IMG/VR virus record: IMGVR_UViG_3300025849_000057
Span: 1 to 48,705 of that record
From: a virus
Direction: 5' to 3' (one strand)
DNA length: 48,705 bases
Positions 175 through 45,826 of this stretch are shown here, in pieces. The translations under genes and the position numbers were made by a program. The notes below the pieces were generated by a model. The model was not told where the DNA came from and made no database searches. It saw nothing but the letters and a program-made list of their open reading frames with translations. Position 1 is the stretch's first letter. The number at the start of each line of letters is the position of its first letter.

Positions 175-3100
175 ATGGCAAGAAAATACTTAAAATTCGG
201 TTTAAGAGCAGACAAAAATCTTTCTGATCTATCAGATAAGACTGCCGCTCTTAATAATATACTAAACGATATAGCTACCTCTACTGATACGGAAGGATCT
301 CTTTTAGGATTTGTTAAAGATGATATTTCTGCTTTAATAGGATTATCGGCAACTGGACTAGGACAAGATACTGCGCTTAATGAAGAGGGTCTTCCTGTGC
401 CTTTGGTTCGACTAGCAGGAACTTCTGTTCTTACTCAGAATGCCGTAGGAGACGAGGTGCCAGTTGAGCCTAGAGTAACAATACAGGATAAGATAAACAT
501 TCATAAAAATGTTATGGGTGATCCACCATTTGCGAGTGGTGGTGACGGACCCAATGCAACATTTATACCGGGCAACAGACTAAGCTTAAACACCAAAGTT
601 ATAGGAAACGAGATAGCGGGCGATAATGCTATAGTGGGTAACAAATACAACTGGACAGGAAATACTGGATCAATTGACCATGATGTTGCAACAGCAGACT
701 TAAATATTCTAACTGGAGAAAATAGGCCACAAGGTACAGACTCGGTCGCTCAAGTATCGGGTAAACCGTACATTATTCATGCGTTAGGCACATTCGACTT
801 CAAGACTAGAGGAGCAGAGTCTAACACAGTAGGACTAGTATATACTGCAAACTCTAGCACAAATATATCGAGCAACGGTAAAGCAGTTGCGGGTGTCTTA
901 GCAACATCAGCAGTTGTAGGTAAAAAATATACTATATTAGCAATAGGAGACACGAGTGTTTCTGACTGGATGACACTAGGATGCACAGAATATCCTCACG
1001 TAGGAACAACATTTACTGCGTCTGTAGCTGGTAGCGGTATCACAGGCACAACATCTTACATAACTGAACAATGGGTTGTAGGAAACGAAATCAGTGTCAT
1101 CCAGACTAGTCCAGGTAGTGGAGTCGCCTCTACTGTTGAATATAACAGAGCAAATAGACTTAACACTAGCGGAACAATCGAAAATGGCAACCTTAACTAC
1201 CCCAACAATTACATTAGATTATACATTCGTGATGCAAGTAATATTGGCTTTATTGACCCTAGCACGGTTCTTAGTGCAGGACAAACTGTCACCTTTAGTC
1301 AGCGAACCGACAACTCGCTAGGCAATTATAACAATACCGTTTTATTTACAACTCAGACAATTCATAGTGTAAATCAGTACTTCGCCAACATTTACTGGGT
1401 AGACGGTAGCGGTAATGACGTTGATATTACTACTGCCGACCCCGATTCGGCAGAGGTGAATGTAACTGCAAATGTGACAGAGACTTCCAGCTTCACTAGC
1501 GTTAACTTGATAAAACTTAGAAATGCGACTATGCCTTCTGGTGATGGTCAAGATACCATACCGAGCAGTATATCTGCGGACAGACTTTACAGCACAGTAG
1601 TTGATGATGCGCTTACAAACATAGAGACTACTGGAGACTTCTGGGAAGACGGCACTTTTGAGTTTCAGACATCTATACATCCAAACTTTGAGGATACGTT
1701 TGGAGGAGTACAGTGGGAAGGATATCAAGATAGCCAATTTGGAAGCATGGACTGGTTGACTAGTGGCTTCTTCATGGTAGAAGAGGATTTATATAATGAT
1801 AATAACTGGGAATTAAAGAAAGCTATTACTAGTGAAAATGTGTATCCAATAGGAAGATTGAAGTTTACGAGTGCATCCAATGAAAATGGTGTAACTGTCA
1901 CACGAATAGAGTTATCTAACGTAAATGATTATCTTCGTATAGCCAAAGACATGACCTTATCCTTTTTAGGAGAAGATTTTGCAGTACAAAGAGTATATAG
2001 AAGTTATGATAGTGGTACCGCCAGATATCGATACTTTGCTGACTTAGACCGAAACAAAGATATATCTTCATACTCACAATTGAACACTCTGGGAACATAT
2101 GTTAATCCGACAGATACTACAAATAGCGAATATCTTCACTTCAATTGGCAACTAGGTGTTCCTGTAGAGACTGATGAGTCTATACACATCACTCTTCCAT
2201 CTAGTGGAAAAAGACGACACATTAGATACACTGTCTGGTGGCCTGCATCCAATGAAATATATTCACTATCTAGACTAGAAGAACTCAACAGACAGTCTAT
2301 ACCCCTGACATTTAACTTTTTCTATAAGACTAATCAGCCTACGGACTTTACAAACGCTAAACATAGTTTTCCGTTCTTTATGGAAAACAAGCTTGGTCCA
2401 AGATCGCAAGATAGCAACTTTTCTACTACTGTAGATAATACAGTATCTATCGAGTATTCGCCTTCGCTACTTAGTGCGGATAAGTTCTACGACTTCAATG
2501 AAGTTGCCTCAGACTCGCACACTATTATTGAAGAGTTGATAGAGGTTCGTGAAGAGGGTTCAGTAACATCAACAACTTCTACCACTTTTTTCGATGAATT
2601 TAATCAACCAAACTCTGAAGGCGAGTGGCTTGTTGTTAGACCATTGACAGACCCATCCGGACCAAATCCAATAAAAATATTCGCATATCAAATAATAGAA
2701 AAGGAGTTCAATCAGAAAATTACCCTGGCGGACACATATAGAAGTGAAATTGGTGTCAATTTACACGAAAAGCATGGAGCTATGTTAGTTTCTAATATAG
2801 GCTTAGTGGGAATATACAAGCATCAAGCTGCCACCGGAACTGGAGTAAGGGTTTCCGAACTTTCTTATGCAGACTATAAAGTTTTGCCTCAAAAGTTAGA
2901 CACAGGAGCAAAATCTATGAATAGAGATGTGTCTCTTATCGGCTTAGGAGATATTGTACACATTGCTGACCTACATTCCACTATAAGTGCAATACTGCCA
3001 GCAAGGACACATAAGTACGCATTTACTGTAGTCCATATAGATGCTGATAGTACGATACACCTTGAGGAGCATCCCAGCAATGCGAATGTTCTTACCGATG

Positions 3101-3720
3101 TGTTAAAAGGAACAATACAAGCAGGAATAATGGCTGTATATTCTAGCAAAGGATTACTCGACAAAAGTACACAAGCTGAGTGTATAGACGTATTCGGTAA
3201 AACTGCAACCCAAGATAGACCCATCGGCACCACTCAGATATATCTCAATAGCTCTGGTGTTTCAGTCGGGGACTTTGTTCAGTTGGAAGGAACAATTCCT
3301 GCTAACACTAAGGTTCGAAGCGTGGCTGCAGGTTATGTCTTGTTAGGATCTGACGATGGTTCAGGTGGTTATAATACAGTAAATGCAACTGCCCCTATCA
3401 TAATTGGTCAAACAGTGGTGTTTGTTAAGCCTACTGCTGCCAATGGTCAGGGATATCCTGGAGAAAATAAAGAGTATTGTGTTATTCCTCTAAACACGGC
3501 TCCACCTTGGGCAGGTACAAGCGATGGTCTCGAAACGCCAACAGCATTTCCTAACTTAATTGTGAAAGAACTTAAGTTCAAAGACTTACAGATGAATACA
3601 CCTATAGCTAACATTGGACCAAGAGGTGATGGTTCAACTGCATGGGATGGATCGGTTGGTACTATAAGCACGAATACTCCATCTAAATACTTCAGTATCT
3701 TTTATGATGTACCGTCTTAA
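175..3720 (+). CDS. Large virion structural protein carrying two DW modules
   Basis: 1181-aa protein, probably a fibre or baseplate-associated adhesin; I do not recognise a named family. The N-terminal 70 residues (GLRADKNLSDLSDKTAAL...DDISALIGLS) resemble the opening of the LRR protein at 5047-8430, which suggests a shared virion-attachment segment. Two tandem copies of the dispersed DW module follow at about residues 196-238 and 247-292. The rest is Thr/Ser/Asn/Gly-rich and beta-strand-like, with no enzymatic motif seen. It is the only large structural gene here on the + strand, with its own late promoter at 133-140. Its TAA stop overlaps the stop of the convergent gene at 3717 inside a TTAA. 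The ATG at 175 follows GGAAGAATT. Confidence 0.85.
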   Translation: MARKYLKFGLRADKNLSDLSDKTAALNNILNDIATSTDTEGSLLGFVKDDISALIGLSATGLGQDTALNEEGLPVPLVRLAGTSVLTQNAVGDEVPVEPRVTIQDKINIHKNVMGDPPFASGGDGPNATFIPGNRLSLNTKVIGNEIAGDNAIVGNKYNWTGNTGSIDHDVATADLNILTGENRPQGTDSVAQVSGKPYIIHALGTFDFKTRGAESNTVGLVYTANSSTNISSNGKAVAGVLATSAVVGKKYTILAIGDTSVSDWMTLGCTEYPHVGTTFTASVAGSGITGTTSYITEQWVVGNEISVIQTSPGSGVASTVEYNRANRLNTSGTIENGNLNYPNNYIRLYIRDASNIGFIDPSTVLSAGQTVTFSQRTDNSLGNYNNTVLFTTQTIHSVNQYFANIYWVDGSGNDVDITTADPDSAEVNVTANVTETSSFTSVNLIKLRNATMPSGDGQDTIPSSISADRLYSTVVDDALTNIETTGDFWEDGTFEFQTSIHPNFEDTFGGVQWEGYQDSQFGSMDWLTSGFFMVEEDLYNDNNWELKKAITSENVYPIGRLKFTSASNENGVTVTRIELSNVNDYLRIAKDMTLSFLGEDFAVQRVYRSYDSGTARYRYFADLDRNKDISSYSQLNTLGTYVNPTDTTNSEYLHFNWQLGVPVETDESIHITLPSSGKRRHIRYTVWWPASNEIYSLSRLEELNRQSIPLTFNFFYKTNQPTDFTNAKHSFPFFMENKLGPRSQDSNFSTTVDNTVSIEYSPSLLSADKFYDFNEVASDSHTIIEELIEVREEGSVTSTTSTTFFDEFNQPNSEGEWLVVRPLTDPSGPNPIKIFAYQIIEKEFNQKITLADTYRSEIGVNLHEKHGAMLVSNIGLVGIYKHQAATGTGVRVSELSYADYKVLPQKLDTGAKSMNRDVSLIGLGDIVHIADLHSTISAILPARTHKYAFTVVHIDADSTIHLEEHPSNANVLTDVLKGTIQAGIMAVYSSKGLLDKSTQAECIDVFGKTATQDRPIGTTQIYLNSSGVSVGDFVQLEGTIPANTKVRSVAAGYVLLGSDDGSGGYNTVNATAPIIIGQTVVFVKPTAANGQGYPGENKEYCVIPLNTAPPWAGTSDGLETPTAFPNLIVKELKFKDLQMNTPIANIGPRGDGSTAWDGSVGTISTNTPSKYFSIFYDVPS
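760..888 (+). repeat. DW module copy A1 (degenerate, DF variant)
   Basis: Encodes GKPYIIHALGTFDF...NTVGLVYTA...GKAV. It matches the module pattern G..Y.I...G..D[WF] ... VG..[FY].A ... G, with F in place of W. It lies directly before copy A2 in the same protein. Confidence 0.55.
913..1050 (+). repeat. DW module copy A2
   Basis: Encodes VVGKKYTILAIGDTSVSDW...GTTFTASVAGSGITGT. This is a clear match to the dispersed module, in tandem with copy A1. Confidence 0.7.
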
Positions 3721-5036
3721 GTAGCTAAGAGAACTTTGTACTCGGTCTTTTGTAGTGCAGTACTACCCTCTTTGGCCAAGAAGTAGAACTGTTCTCCATT
3801 TATTAGTACGGGTATTTTGTGCGTATATTGTGCCTCGGTTATACTCTCTGAGGATGTGCCTTGAACAAAGGAACGACTTGAAGCAGTGTCAGTAATCAGT
3901 ATTTCGGGATCAACAGCCGCATCGCTGGGCTTCAGTATCAGATTAGTTGGCTGGGCAACATCAGATTCTGTCTTCAGTGATCCATTGTTAGCTCCACTTA
4001 TCGTTAAAGCACTAACGCCTGCTCCTGCTCCTATCGTAACACTCGTTTCGTCTTCCCAAGGATTAATGTTTCCAGAAAATGCACGAGTGGATAGGCCTGT
4101 AGCAGTGTTGACAATGTATAATCCAGGAGGCTGAAATGCTTTAGCTATTGATGATGAATCACTTGCACCCTTCGCTGTTGTTACAAACTTATCGCCTATA
4201 GCTGGTGATGCACCAGTGCCTCCTGTATTTGCTATCCAACCCACAGTAGTCCAATCTGCTTGTCCAACAGTAACTATTTCATATGTTTGTCCAACAACAA
4301 ATTCACCGCACTGCGTGTTATTACCTACCTTAACTCTTAAAGTGTCCGCATTTAGATTATTCTCAATGCGAATAGCTCCATCAAGTCTAACTCTTTTAGT
4401 AAACAGATTGTTCTTGTACGTTAATGGTATTCTTTTTCTTTTTTCTGTGAATGCGGATATAGCTACATCGATGTTAGCAATCTGTGTATATGGATCTGTA
4501 CCCACTGTCGTAGCAACAGCATCCTCGTCCAAGCCAGTATCAGAACCCAAGTCTCCGCTACCATCATCTGTCCCTATAGTCGATATTCTAACTGGAAGAA
4601 GATTATTAAAGTTAGAGGCAAATACCGTATCATTTCTAGTAAGAGACAAGTTAGTTGTATCCAAACCATTAAAATCATAGATACTGCTAGTAGAGATAGT
4701 TTCTAACTGAAAAAGCTCCTGATCGTTACTATTAACAACTTTGTATTCATAGCTGACACCGCCATCAAGAGAAAGTATCGTATTGTTAGTGAAGGCAAGC
4801 TTTGATTCTCCTACAACACGAACTGTAAATCCATCGAAAGGATCATTAAATACCTGAAAATCAACCCGACTAGTAGACGAATTGTTTAAAAGTTGGCCTT
4901 TGAATTTAGTGTTCCCGTCAAAGAGTGCGACATCGAATGCTATACTTGGAAAAGCTAGGTTATTAAATATAGCCCTATCTGAAGATGGAGTATTACTCTC
5001 TTGTAAGTTTAAATTTCTTGTAAATCCTTGAGCCAT
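3717..5036 (-). CDS. Virion structural protein with one DW module, unrecognised family
   Basis: 439-aa protein of unknown family, inferred to be virion-associated because it is the last gene of the leftward structural run and carries a DW module. Residues 1-240 are beta-rich and Asn/Asp/Thr-rich, with a basic patch KRKRIPLTYKNNLF near residue 200. The DW module occupies about residues 245-299 (GQTYEIVTVGQADWTTVGW). The C-terminus (NGEQFYFLAKEGSTAL) is small and compact. It starts at an ATG 10 bases after the stop of the LRR gene, preceded by AAGGAAAA. It ends head-on against the + strand gene with overlapping stop codons. Confidence 0.8.
   Translation of the reverse strand: MAQGFTRNLNLQESNTPSSDRAIFNNLAFPSIAFDVALFDGNTKFKGQLLNNSSTSRVDFQVFNDPFDGFTVRVVGESKLAFTNNTILSLDGGVSYEYKVVNSNDQELFQLETISTSSIYDFNGLDTTNLSLTRNDTVFASNFNNLLPVRISTIGTDDGSGDLGSDTGLDEDAVATTVGTDPYTQIANIDVAISAFTEKRKRIPLTYKNNLFTKRVRLDGAIRIENNLNADTLRVKVGNNTQCGEFVVGQTYEIVTVGQADWTTVGWIANTGGTGASPAIGDKFVTTAKGASDSSSIAKAFQPPGLYIVNTATGLSTRAFSGNINPWEDETSVTIGAGAGVSALTISGANNGSLKTESDVAQPTNLILKPSDAAVDPEILITDTASSRSFVQGTSSESITEAQYTHKIPVLINGEQFYFLAKEGSTALQKTEYKVLLAT
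4141..4303 (-). repeat. DW module copy B
   Basis: Encodes VVGQTYEIVTVGQADWTTVG...IGDKFVTTAKG. It has the full set of module landmarks: Y-x-I, G, DW, G, then G-x-x-F. Confidence 0.75.
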
Positions 5037-37705: not shown

Positions 37706-37713
37706 TATTTATA
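37706..37713 (-). promoter_or_regulatory. T4-type late promoter for gp25 and wedge genes
   Basis: The - strand reads TATAAATA, the exact T4 late consensus, 27 bases before the gp25 start. It overlaps the last codon and stop of the upstream peptidase gene. It is well placed to drive the leftward wedge genes. Confidence 0.7.
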
Positions 37714-39736
37714 TCGATCTTTTCTTTCTAAAGCCATCAATATTGTGTATGTCAAACAGAATAGATGTCTCATAATCTTCAATAGTATCATTAGCATTGC
37801 TCTGCCATGCTCTTCTGTTGCCGTTATCAAGATGAAGATGCGACTCATATACACCGATGCCAGTAAAGCCTGCTCGACTAGCGGCTGCTATAGTATCATC
37901 TCTTATATCAGAAGAGACATTAATGTCAATAGCATAGCCAGAATTGTGTGCAGTCTTATTGGTACCACCGAGTGATGATGCACTATTCTTTCTCTTAGTA
38001 GCGGCTTGCTTAACAACATATGAAGAACCGGTCTGCTCTTGTATTCTTAATAGCTTATACCATACAGACGCATCAATATCTTGCCACCCCTGATCACTTA
38101 TTACACTAGAACTAAACGTGATATTCTGACCGAGACCACTTTCGCTGATACTTCTAACAAGTGCTATTTCTTCTTTTGTCGGCTCTTGTGATGTTACATA
38201 GTCTACATTTCGCTCACTTGGCTTAATACTCTTTGATTGCTTAATCACAGAATCTTTCTTGACTTTCTTATCTTCTTCTGATACTCTAATGGCACCGTAC
38301 TTAACAGCTTCTCTAGTATTAGTCTTCTGAACACTTGTTAATGCTTTTAACTCACTCTCAACTTGATTTGTCATCTTGTTCATCTTAATAGCTGGTGCCA
38401 TCATGACTGCTTGTAGTGATTCAGTGAATTGACATAGACGAAACATTAATAATGCAAGATTCTCGGGTGTAAGTCTCTCAAATGATGATGCGGCTTTAGC
38501 TATAAACGCTTCGACTGCTTTCTTTATATCAGCTAGATTAGTAGCAGACGTAAACTCTTCTATATCACGAGCCATTCGACCAAGCTTCTTCTGTAGTGAC
38601 TTAGCGGCAGAGCCTAATGACTCAACAGCACTAGTACCAGCAGTGACAGCGGCATTCATTAATTGCTTGACTTTTGCTATCAACTTGTCTACAATAGACT
38701 TCAACAAATCAAGTAATGTTCTTAGTAAGCCTTGTTGCTTAATGGATTCAACTAGCTTCTTAGTATCTTTCTCTGCTAGATTTGTTATATCACTTATTGC
38801 ATTCTTTCCGGCATTCACGATAAGCATAGCTTTTGCTAGATCGCCTAGAGTAGAGTTAAACTGCTTACATAATCCAGATGATATAGTACCACCGATATTG
38901 ACATCAAAGTAGAAGTCTAGATCATTAAATAGTCTAGTGATCAAAGCTGGTGCAAGAGCAGACAATCCCCCTGTCAATAAAGCCGCTTTCTCTATCTGTG
39001 TAAGACCGCTTGTATTAGTTGTTACTTGAGAGCCGAAGCCAGACCCGAAGTCACTGAATCCGTCTGATCCGATAACTGTACTATTTCCAGATCCAGTATC
39101 GAAGTTACTCGCTACGTTACTACTTGACGTTGATCCATTATTCGATATATTACTAGCTGAGTTATTAGATGTGCTATTCGATATATTACTAGCCGAGTTA
39201 TTAGATGCGCTATTAGATGCACTACTCAGACCGTCACCAGACGCACCACCAGACGGCCTACTTGACGATGTATACGAAGAGTCAGAAGTACTGATTTCGC
39301 TATCGTTAATAACATTATTTCCAGAATCTAATGTGCTTGAGATACCGGCTGTAGTAACAGAGATATTTGGCGAATTAGTTAAAATAGTACTTGACCCACC
39401 TAGTAGGCCTGTGTTATAATCTACTATAGTTTGTTCTATATCTGCTATGTTAGTGTTAGTAGATAGAAGAAAGTCAGCAATCTCTGTGTATGTTGGTGCA
39501 CCGCTCTCTAGTCGAGCGTTAAGTGTCGGATATTCAGATAGATCAGTCTGCTGAGTTATATTGGCCAGAGCATTCGTGATATTCATTACAGATGCTCTAT
39601 TCAAACTATCAAGAGGATTACTCAAGTCTACAAGAGTAGATACGTCAAGTATATTGTTTAGATCAGCACTTGTTAACGAAAGAGCCGCAGAGGCTTTTGA
39701 CGCTATCGGTGTTGTGTTATTACATTCTATTGACAT
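37709..39736 (-). CDS. Virion protein with C-terminal M15-type peptidase domain
   Basis: 675-aa protein. Residues 1-150 are polar, followed by a Ser/Asn-rich low-complexity linker (about 150-225) with 12-residue repeats. A long Ala/Lys/Leu-rich helical region spans about 250-510. The C-terminal domain (about 525-655) matches zinc D-Ala-D-Ala peptidases of the M15 type: H597-x6-D604 (HNSGYAID) and the HxH at 633-635 (YESHLHLD) followed by RRAW. It probably cuts peptidoglycan cross-bridges during entry. It lies between gp25 and gp5, and gp5 here lacks lysozyme, so it may supply the missing wall-cutting activity. There is no signal peptide. Confidence 0.8.
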   Translation of the reverse strand: MSIECNNTTPIASKASAALSLTSADLNNILDVSTLVDLSNPLDSLNRASVMNITNALANITQQTDLSEYPTLNARLESGAPTYTEIADFLLSTNTNIADIEQTIVDYNTGLLGGSSTILTNSPNISVTTAGISSTLDSGNNVINDSEISTSDSSYTSSSRPSGGASGDGLSSASNSASNNSASNISNSTSNNSASNISNNGSTSSSNVASNFDTGSGNSTVIGSDGFSDFGSGFGSQVTTNTSGLTQIEKAALLTGGLSALAPALITRLFNDLDFYFDVNIGGTISSGLCKQFNSTLGDLAKAMLIVNAGKNAISDITNLAEKDTKKLVESIKQQGLLRTLLDLLKSIVDKLIAKVKQLMNAAVTAGTSAVESLGSAAKSLQKKLGRMARDIEEFTSATNLADIKKAVEAFIAKAASSFERLTPENLALLMFRLCQFTESLQAVMMAPAIKMNKMTNQVESELKALTSVQKTNTREAVKYGAIRVSEEDKKVKKDSVIKQSKSIKPSERNVDYVTSQEPTKEEIALVRSISESGLGQNITFSSSVISDQGWQDIDASVWYKLLRIQEQTGSSYVVKQAATKRKNSASSLGGTNKTAHNSGYAIDINVSSDIRDDTIAAASRAGFTGIGVYESHLHLDNGNRRAWQSNANDTIEDYETSILFDIHNIDGFRKKRSI
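39140..39211 (-). repeat. 36-base tandem repeat, two copies
   Basis: Two adjacent 36-base units (39140-39175, 39176-39211) differ at only a few positions. They encode the 12-residue unit SNNSASNISNST in the low-complexity linker of the peptidase protein. A further degenerate partial unit follows. The repeat is likely to change copy number by slippage. Confidence 0.75.
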
Positions 39737-39763
39737 TTATTTTCTCTTTTCTTTAATTAATAG

Positions 39764-39791
39764 TTGACAAATGGCCATTCTATGTTATAAT
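39764..39791 (+). promoter_or_regulatory. Consensus sigma70 promoter, antisense to gene 5
   Basis: TTGACA (39764-39769), a 16-base spacer, then TATAAT (39786-39791) with an extended -10 TG (83-84). Every core position matches the consensus. It lies in the 74-base gap between two leftward genes but points right, into the 3' end of gene 5 on the antisense strand. No convincing rightward ORF follows, so a small or antisense RNA is the simplest product, if it is active. Confidence 0.6.
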
Positions 39792-39810
39792 AGAAGTTGC
39801 AACTGTTAGC

Positions 39811-41436
39811 CTAGTCATCACCGGAACTCATCAGACTCGTGAATATCGGTCTAAGACGTTTGACGATTGCTTCTCGTACTGCTCTGCTTCCTGGTATGAA
39901 CTCTGGTGCAACAACACTCGCTTTCTCTGTGACAGACTCTCTTGCATCTTTGAATGATATCTGTACGGCTCTAGCACTCTCTTGTGTCGTTATTGTTGCA
40001 CTTGCTGTGTCTGGTGGCGATGAAGCACTTGTGCCGTTACCAAGCTGTACTGTCGAGCCGTCTACTGAAGCAGTATTGGTTGATTGAATGTTTGCTGTAT
40101 CTGTTGCTGTCATATCTGCTTGGCCATTCAGAGCATTAACTGCTGTGTTATTTGCACTCATACGGGCACTAGTATTCGCAGAAGCATGAAACTTAGAAGC
40201 ACTCTTAATACTCGCATCGCCCGTAGCATTAACGCTGAATACGCCCCCGGCTTTGATCGATGTATTATTTGTTGATTCTATATGAATGCTATCTGATGTG
40301 TTGATTTCGATTCCTTTATGACCAGCATCAGCATACGGCAGTATTTGATCTGATACAGCAGGCGTACCTTTTGAAGTAATCTTTGTATATGCTTCACTAA
40401 ACATATTCGTCTTATATGTATCTAGATGAAAATCTCCGTTCAGTGTCTCTAGATAGAAGCCACTTCTGTTCTTGGCATTACCGGCTTTCATCTTCGTACT
40501 GCCCACGCTAACTATATTGATATCATCATCTGTTGCTAATACACTAATACCAGCGGCAGAGATATTCGTCTTCACGCCAGCAGTAAGATTCATATTCGTT
40601 CTGGCAGTAACATTAAAGTTCTCACACTCGATGTCAAGATCACCGTTAATGAATATCTTCCCGGAGCCATGTTCTACTTTAAGTGTATAGTCTTCTTGTA
40701 TATTTGTATGAGAAGAACCCGTAACATAAGTTGACAAGACACCATCTGTTGTGTTATACTGATCTCCAAATGACTTAACAAAGATAGTACCATTTGCATC
40801 AATCTGAAACACAGAACCAGAGGAGTGAGACATTAAGATATAGTCAGTATTCTCTCCATCTTCTGCATCACCAATTACAATAAAGTTATCTCCGTTCTTA
40901 GACGTAATCACTCTATTGATAAGATTATTCTCGGGCATATAGATAGAAGGTTCATCAAATGTTTCTTCAGATAACGCTTGAGTAATACCACTCTCTTGTA
41001 ATGTTCTTTGAGTCAAAGTTTGACCAATCGTCATCTCTTCGCCAGTATTATATCTGTGTAGAGGGGGTGCACCAAAATTATGAATAGATTCTGGTGGTAG
41101 ATAGCCGTCTTCTCCCTCTTGACCGGTACCACTTGCGAATTGCAGATGCATGCCCGGCAATCGACCCATGATCATTGGCTGCTGTGCTTCTCGCCCGTCT
41201 ATAAAGAAACCAAATACCCATTCACCAACACTCGGCACAATCGGAGATACTCCATAAGTCCCATCTAATACAGTCGCCCATGGTAGATGATCAGTCGGCA
41301 CACTCTCTTGTTCGTCTTTACTATCTCGTGGCGGGTGTACACCAAATGCTCTCACTCGAACTCTACCACTATTTGTCTTATCATGTGCATCTTCTACAAC
41401 ACCCACGAAGTGCATCATGTTATTAAATCCGCTCAT
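39811..41436 (-). CDS. 5: Baseplate hub spike protein gp5, lysozyme-less
   Basis: 541-aa homologue of T4 gp5 / VgrG-type spike. Residues of about 8-115 form the OB-fold (FVGVVEDAHDKTNSGRVRVR, PSVGEWVFGFFIDGREAQQP, then MIMGRLPG). From about residue 190 on are short beta repeats leading to a Ser/Ala/Thr/Asn-rich needle (DASIKSASKFHASANTSARM) like the triple-stranded beta-helix of gp5. The E-D-T lysozyme domain that T4 gp5 carries between these parts is absent; that stretch is only a linker. The protein should sit under the gp27-like hub and puncture the membrane. It is the neighbour of the gp27-like gene. Confidence 0.9.
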   Translation of the reverse strand: MSGFNNMMHFVGVVEDAHDKTNSGRVRVRAFGVHPPRDSKDEQESVPTDHLPWATVLDGTYGVSPIVPSVGEWVFGFFIDGREAQQPMIMGRLPGMHLQFASGTGQEGEDGYLPPESIHNFGAPPLHRYNTGEEMTIGQTLTQRTLQESGITQALSEETFDEPSIYMPENNLINRVITSKNGDNFIVIGDAEDGENTDYILMSHSSGSVFQIDANGTIFVKSFGDQYNTTDGVLSTYVTGSSHTNIQEDYTLKVEHGSGKIFINGDLDIECENFNVTARTNMNLTAGVKTNISAAGISVLATDDDINIVSVGSTKMKAGNAKNRSGFYLETLNGDFHLDTYKTNMFSEAYTKITSKGTPAVSDQILPYADAGHKGIEINTSDSIHIESTNNTSIKAGGVFSVNATGDASIKSASKFHASANTSARMSANNTAVNALNGQADMTATDTANIQSTNTASVDGSTVQLGNGTSASSPPDTASATITTQESARAVQISFKDARESVTEKASVVAPEFIPGSRAVREAIVKRLRPIFTSLMSSGDD

Positions 41437-41470: not shown

Positions 41471-42826
41471 TCACGATAAACCACCTTTCGTAATCATCAC
41501 TTGTTGCTTATATGCATCACCACCAAAAGAGTTAACAATATCAGTCACAATAAACTTGCCACTTCTCTCACGATCAATCTCTCTAGTAGAGGCCACTGTA
41601 GTACTAAACTTATATAGTTCTAGATTAAGTATCATGCCAGGATATAAACTAATACGGCCATTGATCTCTATCTGAAACGCATTCTTAGCAAAGTGATAGT
41701 TGGCCATAGGCTTAACACTATAGTTCTCATAGAAGTGTTGATACGGCTTCAGCATATTAGCATCCCCTTCATTCTGGCCTACCTGTGGGAAGTCTGTAAT
41801 CAATACAGTCTCTGGAGCTATATCGGCATTCATATATTCGTTGACAAACTCTTTAGAATGTGTTAGCTTCAACTTCTCAGGCGCCTTCATATCATCACTC
41901 TCTTCAGTGTAATCATAGAGGCGTGTGGTCCGGGTACGATAGTTTATGTCGAGTTCGGTGATGTTTCGGCGATAGGTCCCCTGCTTCATATCAGTCATTG
42001 TATCGACCTTGGCACCGTAGTTGACGTTGTTTACGCTCTGTTGGGCAACCATCTGCCCTGGTCCTGTATTGTCTTCAACAGTGTTGTATATAAAAAATAA
42101 GCGATTCCTGGCATCGTCGGTTAACCCCTCGAAATCGGCGTATTTATCGGTTAGATACTCATGCGTACAGAAATAATACTTCTCTCTTGTCTCAAAGAAT
42201 CTATATAAAGATGTTTTATTCTTACTACTATACGCTCTTCTAGATAAAAACTGCATTGCGGCATCTGGTCTTAGATTAGGTATGACTAACGTCTGTTCTC
42301 CATCTGTTTCTTCTATCTCTATCTCTTTATCATAGTCTTTATTGCCTGTTATAAAGAAACTATTAAAGATATCTTCTACCATATCTGATATCTTTGTATT
42401 TGCCCATGACTTTCTTATCTCTTTTTGATCAGAATGAAGCTTTTGTACGGAACAGAACCTGAGTGTGTACTTTGTCATTCGATCATTTGTTGATGATTCT
42501 GGTCCTATATCTTCTACTGAGTATATAAAGAACTTAGTAGTTTTAATATCACCGTAATAATCTTCGTATGTTATTTCTAATTCTTCTTCGCCACGAATTG
42601 GGACGTCTTGTAGTAGATTACTACTCTCATGTATTGTAGCCGAGCCTGTTATAAACGGACTGTCTATGCTTTCGCTCATATTCCAATGCGATATTGTCTT
42701 ACTTAACTCTACATAGTCCGGATAAGAATTGTTCACGGCATCTGTATTGATAAGCCCCTCTATAATAGGCTTTACCTTAAACGATTTAAGTACATAGAAC
42801 CCTGCTTGGGCGGCTTTATTAGGCAT
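41471..42826 (-). CDS. Baseplate hub protein, gp27-like
   Basis: 451-aa protein between gp53 and gp5, the expected partner of the gp5 spike. Residues of about 40-150 (SKTISHWNMSESIDSPFITG, then EEELEITYEDYYGDIKTTKF, FIYSVEDI) resemble the hub beta-barrels of gp27 / P2 gpD, and residues 370-450 contain another barrel-like domain (SLYPGMILNLELYKF, GKFIVTDIVNSFGGD). The assignment is by fold pattern and context rather than strong motif. The middle (about residues 225-303) is encoded by a GC-rich patch with unusual codons (41919-42160). The gene overlaps gp53 by 8 bases. It ends 34 bases before gp5. Confidence 0.75.
   Translation of the reverse strand: MPNKAAQAGFYVLKSFKVKPIIEGLINTDAVNNSYPDYVELSKTISHWNMSESIDSPFITGSATIHESSNLLQDVPIRGEEELEITYEDYYGDIKTTKFFIYSVEDIGPESSTNDRMTKYTLRFCSVQKLHSDQKEIRKSWANTKISDMVEDIFNSFFITGNKDYDKEIEIEETDGEQTLVIPNLRPDAAMQFLSRRAYSSKNKTSLYRFFETREKYYFCTHEYLTDKYADFEGLTDDARNRLFFIYNTVEDNTGPGQMVAQQSVNNVNYGAKVDTMTDMKQGTYRRNITELDINYRTRTTRLYDYTEESDDMKAPEKLKLTHSKEFVNEYMNADIAPETVLITDFPQVGQNEGDANMLKPYQHFYENYSVKPMANYHFAKNAFQIEINGRISLYPGMILNLELYKFSTTVASTREIDRERSGKFIVTDIVNSFGGDAYKQQVMITKGGLS
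41919..42160 (-). other. GC-rich, codon-usage island inside the gp27-like gene
   Basis: By direct count, 41941-42060 has 60 G+C of 120, against 21 of 60 at 41641-41700 and 24 of 60 at 42241-42300. Arg codons here include CGT, CGG, CGC and AGG, and other codons end in C far more often (for example ACC, CTC, GTC, GCC), unlike the AGA/CGA- and T/A-ending usage around it. The reading frame is intact. The edges are approximate. It suggests recent recombination with a donor of different composition. Confidence 0.65.
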
Positions 42827-43595
42827 CTTTTAATAATTCACTCAGTTGATCTTTGATGGTTGCTAGATAACCTTTGTTAATTAATGATATCTCTCGTTTC
42901 TTTTCATTTAATTCAACTTCATGATCATATATTCTAACGGGATAATACTCTCTCGCTGGATTCGTGATTGATGCTTGATTGACAATACTCGTTGATCCGT
43001 TTGTGATATTGGTACCATCTTGAGTGGCAGTGAATGTATCGCCTGCTTGATAAACAATAGTAGAACTTACTGTACCTGCAAGTATTCGCCAGTCAGCATT
43101 AGCAACTGATCCCAATTTAATAATAGTATATTCATCACCTGATTTTATCTTATCAACAGTAATCTTATGGGTATCGGCTAATTGTACGAATGATGCACGA
43201 TTAATTTGTATATCAGAATCGTACTGGCTTTGATAATGTACAATATTAGCACCGATTGTTGCATTCTTTGTCCATTCTATCACTGCCTGATCGCCTGTTT
43301 GGCCTGATCTCTCTTCATATTGTGAGATAATATATCTATCCATATCTTTAAATGATCTAGGCCATTCACTATAAGGGTCAATAATATCATTTGACATTAA
43401 TACTAACCAAGCTAGTGATGGGTCATCATAGTAATAATAGGCAACATCTTCTGGTCTATCACCATCTGGAATAGTATAAGACATATAAGCAAGTGCAGAA
43501 TCTTTAACGATTTTACTTATTTTGGCTCGTCTTGTTATATCTAATGCTTCCACGCCATTATAAATCGTGGTCGGAAAGTTTGAAAAGTAACTCAT
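42819..43595 (-). CDS. 53: Baseplate wedge protein gp53 with inserted DW module
   Basis: 258-aa homologue of T4 gp53, which clamps wedge contacts near the hub. The key block is PEDVAYYYYDDPSLAWLVLM, then SNDIIDPYSEWP (residues 48-79), matching T4 PEELANAIYGNPQLYWVLLMCNDNYDPYYGW. The C-terminal helix (HEVELNEKKREISLINKGYL) also matches T4. T4 gp53 has 196 residues; the extra roughly 60 are almost exactly the DW module at residues 151-206. The gene overlaps gp48 by four bases (ATGA) and the hub gene by eight, in the T4-like neighbourhood of genes 4 and 5. Confidence 0.9.
   Translation of the reverse strand: MSYFSNFPTTIYNGVEALDITRRAKISKIVKDSALAYMSYTIPDGDRPEDVAYYYYDDPSLAWLVLMSNDIIDPYSEWPRSFKDMDRYIISQYEERSGQTGDQAVIEWTKNATIGANIVHYQSQYDSDIQINRASFVQLADTHKITVDKIKSGDEYTIIKLGSVANADWRILAGTVSSTIVYQAGDTFTATQDGTNITNGSTSIVNQASITNPAREYYPVRIYDHEVELNEKKREISLINKGYLATIKDQLSELLKDA
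42978..43145 (-). repeat. DW module copy J (in gp53)
   Basis: Encodes KSGDEYTIIKLGSVANADW, then RILAG ... AGDTFTATQDG. It is a clean insertion between two parts that both match T4 gp53. Confidence 0.8.
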
Positions 43596-44821
43596 ATTCT
43601 TCTCCCTCCAGCTGGTCCCACTGTCACTGAGTTATCATTTGCCTGTGCTGTAACTGATCCATCTCCTACTACTGTATCGACTATAGATCCATCTTCAAGC
43701 GTCTTTGACACCATAACTTCATCAGAAAATACTGTGTCGAATGATATGCCAGGCCCATTGAATGGAGCACTTGCTGAAGTTTGTGAATTAACCAATCTTC
43801 CTTCGCCATCAGTAGATGTGCCAGATGCTATAGCAGGCAAATCACCCTCATACACTCCCTCTTGTATCAATTCTAACTCAGAATTATCGTCTGCGGTATG
43901 AATATATGCCTCATTTAACGTCATTGTAATACGAATAGCAGATGGTTTACCACCTTTATTGATTGCTAATCCATTAGGAGTATAGTCTATGTTCAATTGA
44001 GATATCATTGATGTTTTAAATTTAAAGTAATAATTCTGATCAATGCCTTGAAAATAAATATTGACCATTGCTGGATACTTTAATATACCCTTATCGATAG
44101 CAGATAAGCCAAATTCACTCTGATCACCCACTGGATTTTGCGTTTTGGGTAGAACCATTCGTTGCAGAGTACGAATAATTTTCTTGAGTTCTCGTTGTTC
44201 TGATTCACTTTCTGGTGATAATAGCCACTCTAGCGAATGTACTTTAAGATCAACGCCTTTAAATACAAGAGTAGCGAATGGATTTACTGCTGTACCACGA
44301 CCAACTCCGATACCATTTGCGATATCTGGAGATATAGATGCTAATCCAGCTCGTGTAATGAATCCTGCGGCATCAGCGGCTTTACTCATTGCTTCTTGTG
44401 CGGCTTCGGTATCACCATTGATTGCTGATCCAGCGGCACTTAACCCCGCTGATAATCCTTGAGCAGATGCTTTACCCAGATTACTAAAGGTCTCTTTCAT
44501 TTTATCTTCTTGCCCACCCAGAGAAGCCGCAATATCGGCAGACCCTATACCCAGCAATCCAAGTTCGTCACCCCCAACATTGATTTTAAAACTATCGTTG
44601 ATCTGTTTAGGTAATGGTAATAATACTTCAGCAAGTGGTTGTTGAACTGAACCCTTGCTACCACCATAAGTGTATTGAAAGAATCTCATTAAAGTAGCGT
44701 GAGAGCCTAGGTTGTTAGGGAACTTAAGAATGCCAGATGGCCCTCTATGATCCGCTCTTCTCTGAGCAATATGCTGTGCCGGGCTAGCTTTTAATAAGGA
44801 ATCAGATGTGCCGTTATTCAT
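43592..44821 (-). CDS. 48: Baseplate tail-tube cap protein gp48
   Basis: 409-aa homologue of T4 gp48, which caps the hub and nucleates the tail tube. The tube-like core is visible at about residues 175-330: AVNPFATLVFKGVDLKVHSL, then EWLLSPESESEQRELKKII, ILKYPAMVNIYFQG and SAIRITMTLNEAYI. Residues 115-165 are Ala/Gly/Ser-rich and helical (SAQGLSAGLSAAGSAING). The C-terminal 80 residues are a polar extension. A late promoter box lies upstream at 44864-44871. It is divergent from gp4 and is the first gene of the leftward run. Confidence 0.85.
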   Translation of the reverse strand: MNNGTSDSLLKASPAQHIAQRRADHRGPSGILKFPNNLGSHATLMRFFQYTYGGSKGSVQQPLAEVLLPLPKQINDSFKINVGGDELGLLGIGSADIAASLGGQEDKMKETFSNLGKASAQGLSAGLSAAGSAINGDTEAAQEAMSKAADAAGFITRAGLASISPDIANGIGVGRGTAVNPFATLVFKGVDLKVHSLEWLLSPESESEQRELKKIIRTLQRMVLPKTQNPVGDQSEFGLSAIDKGILKYPAMVNIYFQGIDQNYYFKFKTSMISQLNIDYTPNGLAINKGGKPSAIRITMTLNEAYIHTADDNSELELIQEGVYEGDLPAIASGTSTDGEGRLVNSQTSASAPFNGPGISFDTVFSDEVMVSKTLEDGSIVDTVVGDGSVTAQANDNSVTVGPAGGRRI

Positions 44822-44834
44822 GTTATGACCTTTA

Positions 44835-44842
44835 TATAAATA
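44835..44842 (+). promoter_or_regulatory. T4-type late promoter for gp4
   Basis: Exact TATAAATA on the + strand, 45 bases before the GTG start of gp4. It lies upstream of, and points toward, the leftward box at 44864-44871, so the two transcripts would overlap at their 5' ends by roughly ten bases. Confidence 0.7.
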
Positions 44843-44863: not shown

Positions 44864-44871
44864 TATTTATA
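44864..44871 (-). promoter_or_regulatory. T4-type late promoter for gp48 run
   Basis: Exact TATAAATA on the - strand, about 43 bases before the gp48 start at 44821. It heads the long leftward run of hub and wedge genes and faces the gp4 promoter. Confidence 0.7.
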
Positions 44872-44886
44872 TGTATTGGAGATATT

Positions 44887-45339
44887 GTGCCGAAGTATTA
44901 TCAGGGTAGATTTAAACCTGAACACCCGAAAAAGTATAAAGGAGATCCATCTAATATAATATATCGTAGTGGATGGGAACTTAAACTCATGCGTTATTTA
45001 GATAAGCATCCGCACGTCACTCGATGGAATAGTGAAGAGATAATTATACCCTATCGCTCACCAATTGACGGAAAGATGCATAGATATTTTCCCGACTTCT
45101 ATGTTGAGAAGACATTTCACGGTAAAAAAGAAAAGATATTAATTGAAGTAAAACCATGGGCGCAGACTCAAGCACCAAAGGTTCAGAACACTAAAAAGAA
45201 TAAGCCTACTAAGCGTTATATAAATGAAGTCAAGACTTACGGCACAAACTCAGCTAAATGGAATGCGGCAGAAGAATATTGTAAAGACAAGGGATGGAAG
45301 TTCTCTATCATAACAGAACGAGAGTTAGGAATAAAATAA
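44887..45339 (+). CDS. 4: Head completion nuclease gp4
   Basis: 150-aa homologue of T4 gp4 (gp50), needed for head completion before tail joining. It matches T4 at YKGDPSNIIYRSGWELKLMR (T4 YRGDPKKITYRSNWEKFFFE), YLDKHPHVTRWNSE, IPY, and GKMHRYFPDFYV. Residues form a PD-(D/E)xK nuclease-like set: E31, P69-D70 and E87-V-K89. The length equals T4 gp4. The start is a GTG with GGAG five bases upstream. The neighbours gp53 and gp5 on the other strand repeat the T4 4-53-5 cluster with gene 4 inverted. Confidence 0.9.
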   Translation: MPKYYQGRFKPEHPKKYKGDPSNIIYRSGWELKLMRYLDKHPHVTRWNSEEIIIPYRSPIDGKMHRYFPDFYVEKTFHGKKEKILIEVKPWAQTQAPKVQNTKKNKPTKRYINEVKTYGTNSAKWNAAEEYCKDKGWKFSIITERELGIK

Positions 45340-45382: not shown

Positions 45383-45826
45383 ATGTACGAGTATAAGACG
45401 AAAGTTGTGAAGATAGTTGACGGTGACACAGTTGATGTAGATATTGATTTGGGCTTTGGTATATGGCTATATAATGAGCGTGTACGCATTATGGGTATTG
45501 ATACGCCAGAATCAAGAACAAGAGATAAAGTTGAGAAGAAGTTTGGTCTAGCCGCTAAAGCACGATTGAAGTCTCTACTCGGTAAGAATCCAGTATTGAA
45601 GACACAGATCAGTAAGAAGGGCGAAGATATGCGGGGCAAGTTCGGCCGTGTACTCGGAGACTTTGACGTATATTGTGCTAAAGCTGATGCATGGCGACCA
45701 GCTACTCAGATATTAGTTGAAGAAGGTCATGCTGTACCATATTTTGGTGGATCAAAAGATGAAGTTGATGCACAACATTTAGCTAACAGAGATCGATTAA
45801 TCGCTGAAGGTATCGTAACACTATAA
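45383..45826 (+). CDS. Thermonuclease (Staphylococcal nuclease-like)
   Basis: 147-aa SNase-fold nuclease, Ca2+-dependent in the known family. Catalytic and metal residues are visible: D13-G-D15-T16, R35 and D40 within VRIMGIDTPES, E43, and R89 in KFGRVLG. The protein is full domain length with no signal peptide, so it acts in the infected cell or inside the virion. Its place between gp4 and baseplate genes suggests a late function on DNA rather than nucleotide scavenging; that is inference. ATG at 45383 has AAGGA nine bases upstream. Its stop overlaps the next small gene (TAATG). Confidence 0.9.
   Translation: MYEYKTKVVKIVDGDTVDVDIDLGFGIWLYNERVRIMGIDTPESRTRDKVEKKFGLAAKARLKSLLGKNPVLKTQISKKGEDMRGKFGRVLGDFDVYCAKADAWRPATQILVEEGHAVPYFGGSKDEVDAQHLANRDRLIAEGIVTL

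Follow-up and report, generated by a model that had tools for sequence, protein, structure and literature searches.

Among described systems, the phage T4 origin oriE appears to depend on an early promoter; it contains repeats and is located close to a point where transcription changes strand (PMC3016281). In the T4 record it is annotated at 79355, in the (-) direction, with the remark 'primer RNA is complement of gene 5 transcript'; the same record places repEA and repEB antisense within gene 5. Position 79355 falls within TTGATG-N17-TATAAT with TG (79377-79349), the strongest match to an antisense promoter in T4 gene 5. The site is present again at -309 relative to the end of the gene in Mosigvirus JK36, Dhakavirus dhaeg, Moonvirus Merlin and Jiaodavirus KPV15, and in a weaker form in Winklervirus X20; it is absent from that position in RB27 and KaAlpha. 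oriE has so far been regarded as peculiar to a single phage. The review PMC3016281 lists as open the question whether R-loops serve at origins other than oriF and oriG. Our descriptions of oriE and of the PeSL (promoter early stem-loop) cassettes carried by T4-type phages draw partly on PMC3016281 and PMC4503421. In the marine T4-like cyanophage S-PM2, NATAAATA has been reported as the late promoter, and the antisense RNA CfrI lies opposite psbA and a homing endonuclease gene rather than gene 5 (PMC2984593).

We analyzed a complete IMG/VR record of 48,705 nt from an uncultured marine T4-like phage (the window; Table 1). Its leftward gene order, gp48, gp53, gp27-like, gp5, peptidase-like ORF, gp25 and gp6, is that of the Sinorhizobium phages phiM12 and phiN3, in which a peptidase M15 gene follows gp5 at the position of the 675-aa ORF. 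A 36-nt tandem repeat (39139-39218, 2.2 copies, 93% match) lies within this ORF. The transcription units diverge at 44.85 kb and the rightward genes begin at 44887, with late-type TATAAATA boxes of their own at 44835 (+, before gp4) and 45349. The window holds eight TATAAATA boxes in total, which is not in excess of the 5.9 expected by chance. A nuclease-like ORF (45383-45826, +, phrog_452) is inserted between gp4 and gp2, and the left contig end carries ORFs of 1181 aa (175-3720, +) and 439 aa (3717-5036, -) with no PHROG match. The 3.8-kb region showed no DNA similarity to named phages, and the gap sequence alone gave nothing beyond short chance matches against phages and plasmids.

Table 1. 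Coordinates of the promoter elements and neighboring genes in the window.
Feature	Position	Strand or direction	Remark
sigma70-type promoter, TTGACA-N16-TATAAT, extended -10 TG	39764..39791	+	rightward, antisense to gp5
-35 hexamer TTGACA	39764..39769	+	16-nt spacer follows
-10 hexamer TATAAT	39786..39791	+	preceded by TGT (extended -10)
Conserved discriminator and predicted start region, AGAAGTTGCAAC	39792..39803	+	start predicted near 39798
74-nt gap in the leftward late operon	39737..39810		between gp5 and the 675-aa ORF; holds the promoter
675-aa peptidase-like ORF	37709..39736	-	phrog_25247; start follows the gap
gp5-like baseplate hub gene (OB-fold)	39811..41436	-	phrog_430, E 4e-32; antisense target
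Promoter-like TTGACA-N18-TATACT with TG, inside gp5	40731..40760	+	antisense
gp27-like hub protein	41471-42826	leftward	
gp53	42819-43595	leftward	
gp48	43592-44821	leftward	
Late-type promoter TATAAATA	44864..44871	-	upstream of the gp48-gp53-gp27-like-gp5 operon

The gap after gp5 contains a site that agrees with the extended -10 class of sigma70 promoters (TTGACA, 16-18 nt, TATAAT, TGn) at 12 of 12 hexamer bases and in the TG extension. It is the single exact match to TTGACA-N15..19-TATAAT in the whole window. Dinucleotide shuffles of the window gave a mean of 0.10 exact matches, and 10 of 100 shuffles had one; taken alone, this match is only moderately unlikely to have arisen by chance. 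In contigs of these phages, the related pattern TTGACA-N17-TATAAT precedes gp32 and further ORFs of the early region, which identifies the gap element as an ordinary early sigma70 promoter whose location is unusual. A further antisense site (39391-39420, +; TTGACC-18-TATAAT with TG) lies within the 675-aa ORF and is common only to the nearest relatives, L002 and L003. We did not count it as an instance of the element, since it falls in coding DNA and is found just in those relatives.

We collected relatives of gp5 irrespective of the promoter, obtaining 83 loci including the window, or 50 lineages after dereplication at 95%. A gap of at least 60 nt follows gp5 in 20 of the 50 lineages; 18 of these hold a 12/12 site, one (L237) an 11/12 site, and one (L248) a 10/12 site with TG. 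All of the gap sites are antisense to gp5, and the sense strand of the same gaps has no site of 11/12 or better. The promoter was found in none of the 25 lineages with a gap shorter than 60 nt, so that the gap exists essentially where the promoter exists. It is this conservation, in the same gap and the same orientation, that places the window site beyond chance. For the 22 unique sequences with a 16-nt spacer, the information content is 1.90 bits per base in the -35 and 1.86 in the -10, whereas the spacer has 0.79 and the upstream flanks have 0.77, and the 12 nt that follow the -10 average 1.33 bits; for nine sequences with a 17-nt spacer, the hexamers carry 1.76 bits and the spacer 0.20. Hexamers that stay fixed while spacers and flanks diverge indicate that the promoter element is under selection. 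Given its sequence and conservation, we consider it very probable that the site is a real and functional early promoter, antisense to gp5 and recognized by the sigma70 RNA polymerase of the host.

The arrangement of the element varies among relatives. The proximal -10 ends 12 to 43 nt past the gp5 stop, some lineages carry two to five tandem copies (five in L015) in units of 83-85 nt, and six lineages have a copy, likewise antisense, just upstream of gp5. On the gp5 tree, bearers of the promoter fall in distant branches and three changes explain its presence and absence, a distribution compatible with ancestral presence and later losses. In 21 larger records, most of the exact N16 and N17 sites flank gp5 or stand in early-gene regions; a few lie elsewhere, and no instance of the reversed promoter pattern occurs. 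Other antisense sites were observed in this material. The cultured Pelagibacter phage Mosig has a 12/12 antisense promoter-like site with TG inside gp53 (position 1791 of locus L264, -). In locus L278, two tandem 12/12 sigma70 promoters (6197 and 6273, +; 76 nt apart), each followed by AGNGTTATNGCT, lie in a gap of a leftward replication-gene block and point antisense towards a UvsW-like helicase gene, so that these phages have antisense early promoters, here as a pair, at a second place.

The tree places the window and L003 as sister to a gapless clade of 17 rows, and this group shares a second candidate site, inside gp5 (Table 1). The codons of its -10, its TGT extension and part of its -35 are invariant in 19 of 19 sequences of the clade, the window and L003, against a background in which 16.6% of comparable codons are invariant; the codons of its spacer vary. 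This pattern suggests codon-level constraint on the promoter-like site, with the caveat that coding constraint also produces strings resembling promoters on the sense strand. In the alignment, the oriE promoter of T4 falls about 26 codons 3' of this site.

The initial annotation had described the rightward promoter in the gap of the leftward operon, with a start near 39798. Its composition was recovered exactly, the same start was predicted, and the box pattern, whose conservation had been proposed as a check, is kept in relatives as described above. Its statement that late genes of T4-like phages use TATAAATA was fair, given the boxes before gp48 and gp4, with the reservation that their total number is not above chance. 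As for interpretation, a conserved, host-type early promoter firing antisense into gene 5 stands, while the description of such a promoter as out of place does not: T4 itself has an early antisense promoter in gene 5, at oriE (PMC3016281), and it is conserved in related genera. The window showed neither a structured small RNA, a separate small RNA having been the annotation's alternative, nor an antisense ORF preceded by a ribosome site.

The late operon crosses the promoter site. In 14 of the 19 lineages with the element, a late-type NATAAATA lies across the gp5 stop in the sense direction and faces the early promoter, but neither the window nor L003 has this box. Where it is present, the sense NATAAATA would give opposite early and late transcription of the locus. 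In the proposed mechanism, a rightward RNA would start early, about 20 nt beyond the gp5 stop, and would be complementary to the gp5 3' end; this early transcript, running backwards through gene 5, may help to start replication, as a primer or in an R-loop, as in T4 oriE. Late in infection the same DNA would be transcribed leftward within the tail operon, and the switch to late transcription would silence the early antisense transcript. Provided that the promoter is functional, we regard an oriE-like role in replication as evenly balanced between true and false, and the origin function as putative. The parallel with oriE makes a replication-linked transcript somewhat more likely. More broadly, and tentatively, the gp5 gap may be a compact early/late switch and replication origin that is widespread in uncultured marine T4-like phages, with one to five perfect antisense early promoters that often face a late promoter at the gp5 stop. 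It would then be a simplified relative or analogue of oriE without RepE proteins, and sublineages in which the gap has closed would keep the function through an antisense promoter in gp5 codons.

Features that accompany known origins were sought at the locus, and the lack of RepE-like ORFs, of iterons in the window gap and of an AT-rich unwinding element counts against an origin role. The first 900 nt of the predicted transcript in the window contain no repEA/repEB-like antisense ORF of at least 25 aa with a Shine-Dalgarno sequence, and no RepE-like antisense ORF is consistent across relatives. The window gap has no iterons (evenly spaced direct repeats). Of three relatives examined for iterons, L218 has perfect 17-nt tandem repeats (GATCCAGGTGCATCATC; 4096-4163) between two post-gp5 antisense promoters, reminiscent of the oriE iterons. 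No AT-rich unwinding element was found downstream of the promoter, where GC content is 0.47 over 300 nt versus 0.39 for the locus, in contrast to the oriF/oriG R-loop origins. Fourfold-site T-A skew shifts at gp5 in 11 of 11 contigs, including relatives without the promoter, and thus supports neither side on an origin role.

The main rival to a replication role is antisense interference with gp5, as proposed in the initial annotation, in which the early RNA, or the moving polymerase, would keep gp5 and the hub genes low until late, by duplex formation or transcription interference. The orientation and place of the promoter fit such regulation, as do the firing of the early promoter across the late-type promoter in the 14 lineages described above and the presence, in some lineages, of several copies flanking gp5 on both sides. 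A repressor nevertheless seems little needed, since T4-like late genes are already off early, when there is no gp55 and no replication-coupled activation, and no conserved RNA structure was found; the predicted RNA 5' end has no Rfam match and no unusual folding. We consider antisense regulation possible but rather unlikely.

Next is the reading that the promoter is a leftover or mobile cassette, which either remained after opposite-strand early genes behind gp5 were lost or was copied about. T4-like phages often have islands of opposite-strand early genes close behind gp5; KVP40, Moby, phiM12/phiN3, Mosig and F358 carry opposite-strand genes there, some with promoter-like sites ahead of them. 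Mobility would fit the tandem duplicated units at 83-85 nt spacing and an identical spacer, ATGTACAAATTTGTG, that precedes gp5 in one lineage and follows it in others. A relic would decay, yet the hexamers are perfect in 18 of 20 lineages amid diverging surroundings, and this reading appears improbable. It is very unlikely that the rightward genes beyond the divergence point, namely gp4, nuclease, gp2 and tail tube, are expressed early from this promoter by a transcript of more than 5 kb: no intrinsic terminator-like site occurs on the + strand from 39.8 to 48.4 kb, but the genes, which begin at 44887, are late structural genes with their own TATAAATA boxes, and a long untranslated RNA would be prone to Rho termination. 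Finally, a chance match, or a sense-strand element read backwards, is scarcely credible: although one match per ten windows is expected and 12/12 sites occasionally occur in coding DNA, 19 lineages share fixed hexamers, 16-17 nt spacing and TG around free spacers, with no sense-strand counterpart.

Returning to the preferred reading, that of an early promoter with an oriE-like role, the locus shares some properties with each of several known systems. It resembles PeSL cassettes in being a small intergenic unit with an early promoter, subject to duplication and relocation. PeSL promoters drive an adjacent early ORF and carry a stem-loop terminator, whereas the window promoter is antisense to late genes, and the gap (39737-39810) has no terminator-like hairpin and no unusual folding. 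The proposed use of a promoter-driven transcript as replication primer recalls the T4 R-loop origins oriF and oriG, which have MotA middle promoters and an AT-rich downstream unwinding element, in contrast to the early-type promoter and GC-richer downstream DNA of the window. With CfrI of S-PM2 the locus shares a predicted antisense RNA in a T4-like marine phage.

The most extensive comparison is with T4 oriE. Both have an early sigma70-type promoter with TG that is antisense to gene 5, both would direct early transcription towards gene 53 and the late-operon divergence point, and in both the same DNA would be transcribed oppositely late. In T4 the promoter is internal to gene 5, at a distance of 309 nt from the gene end, has a weaker -35, and feeds the small ORFs repEA and repEB beside a repeat cluster; the window promoter is a perfect consensus in the gap that follows gene 5, and the window shows no such ORFs. 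The two promoter positions are similar, not homologous. The occurrence of an antisense early promoter within gene 5 in Tevenvirinae, and next to gene 5 in marine phages only distantly related to them, suggests that early transcription opposing gene 5 is an old and selected trait of T4-like phages. The promoter is a short, precisely placed element that could be tested in any culturable relative.
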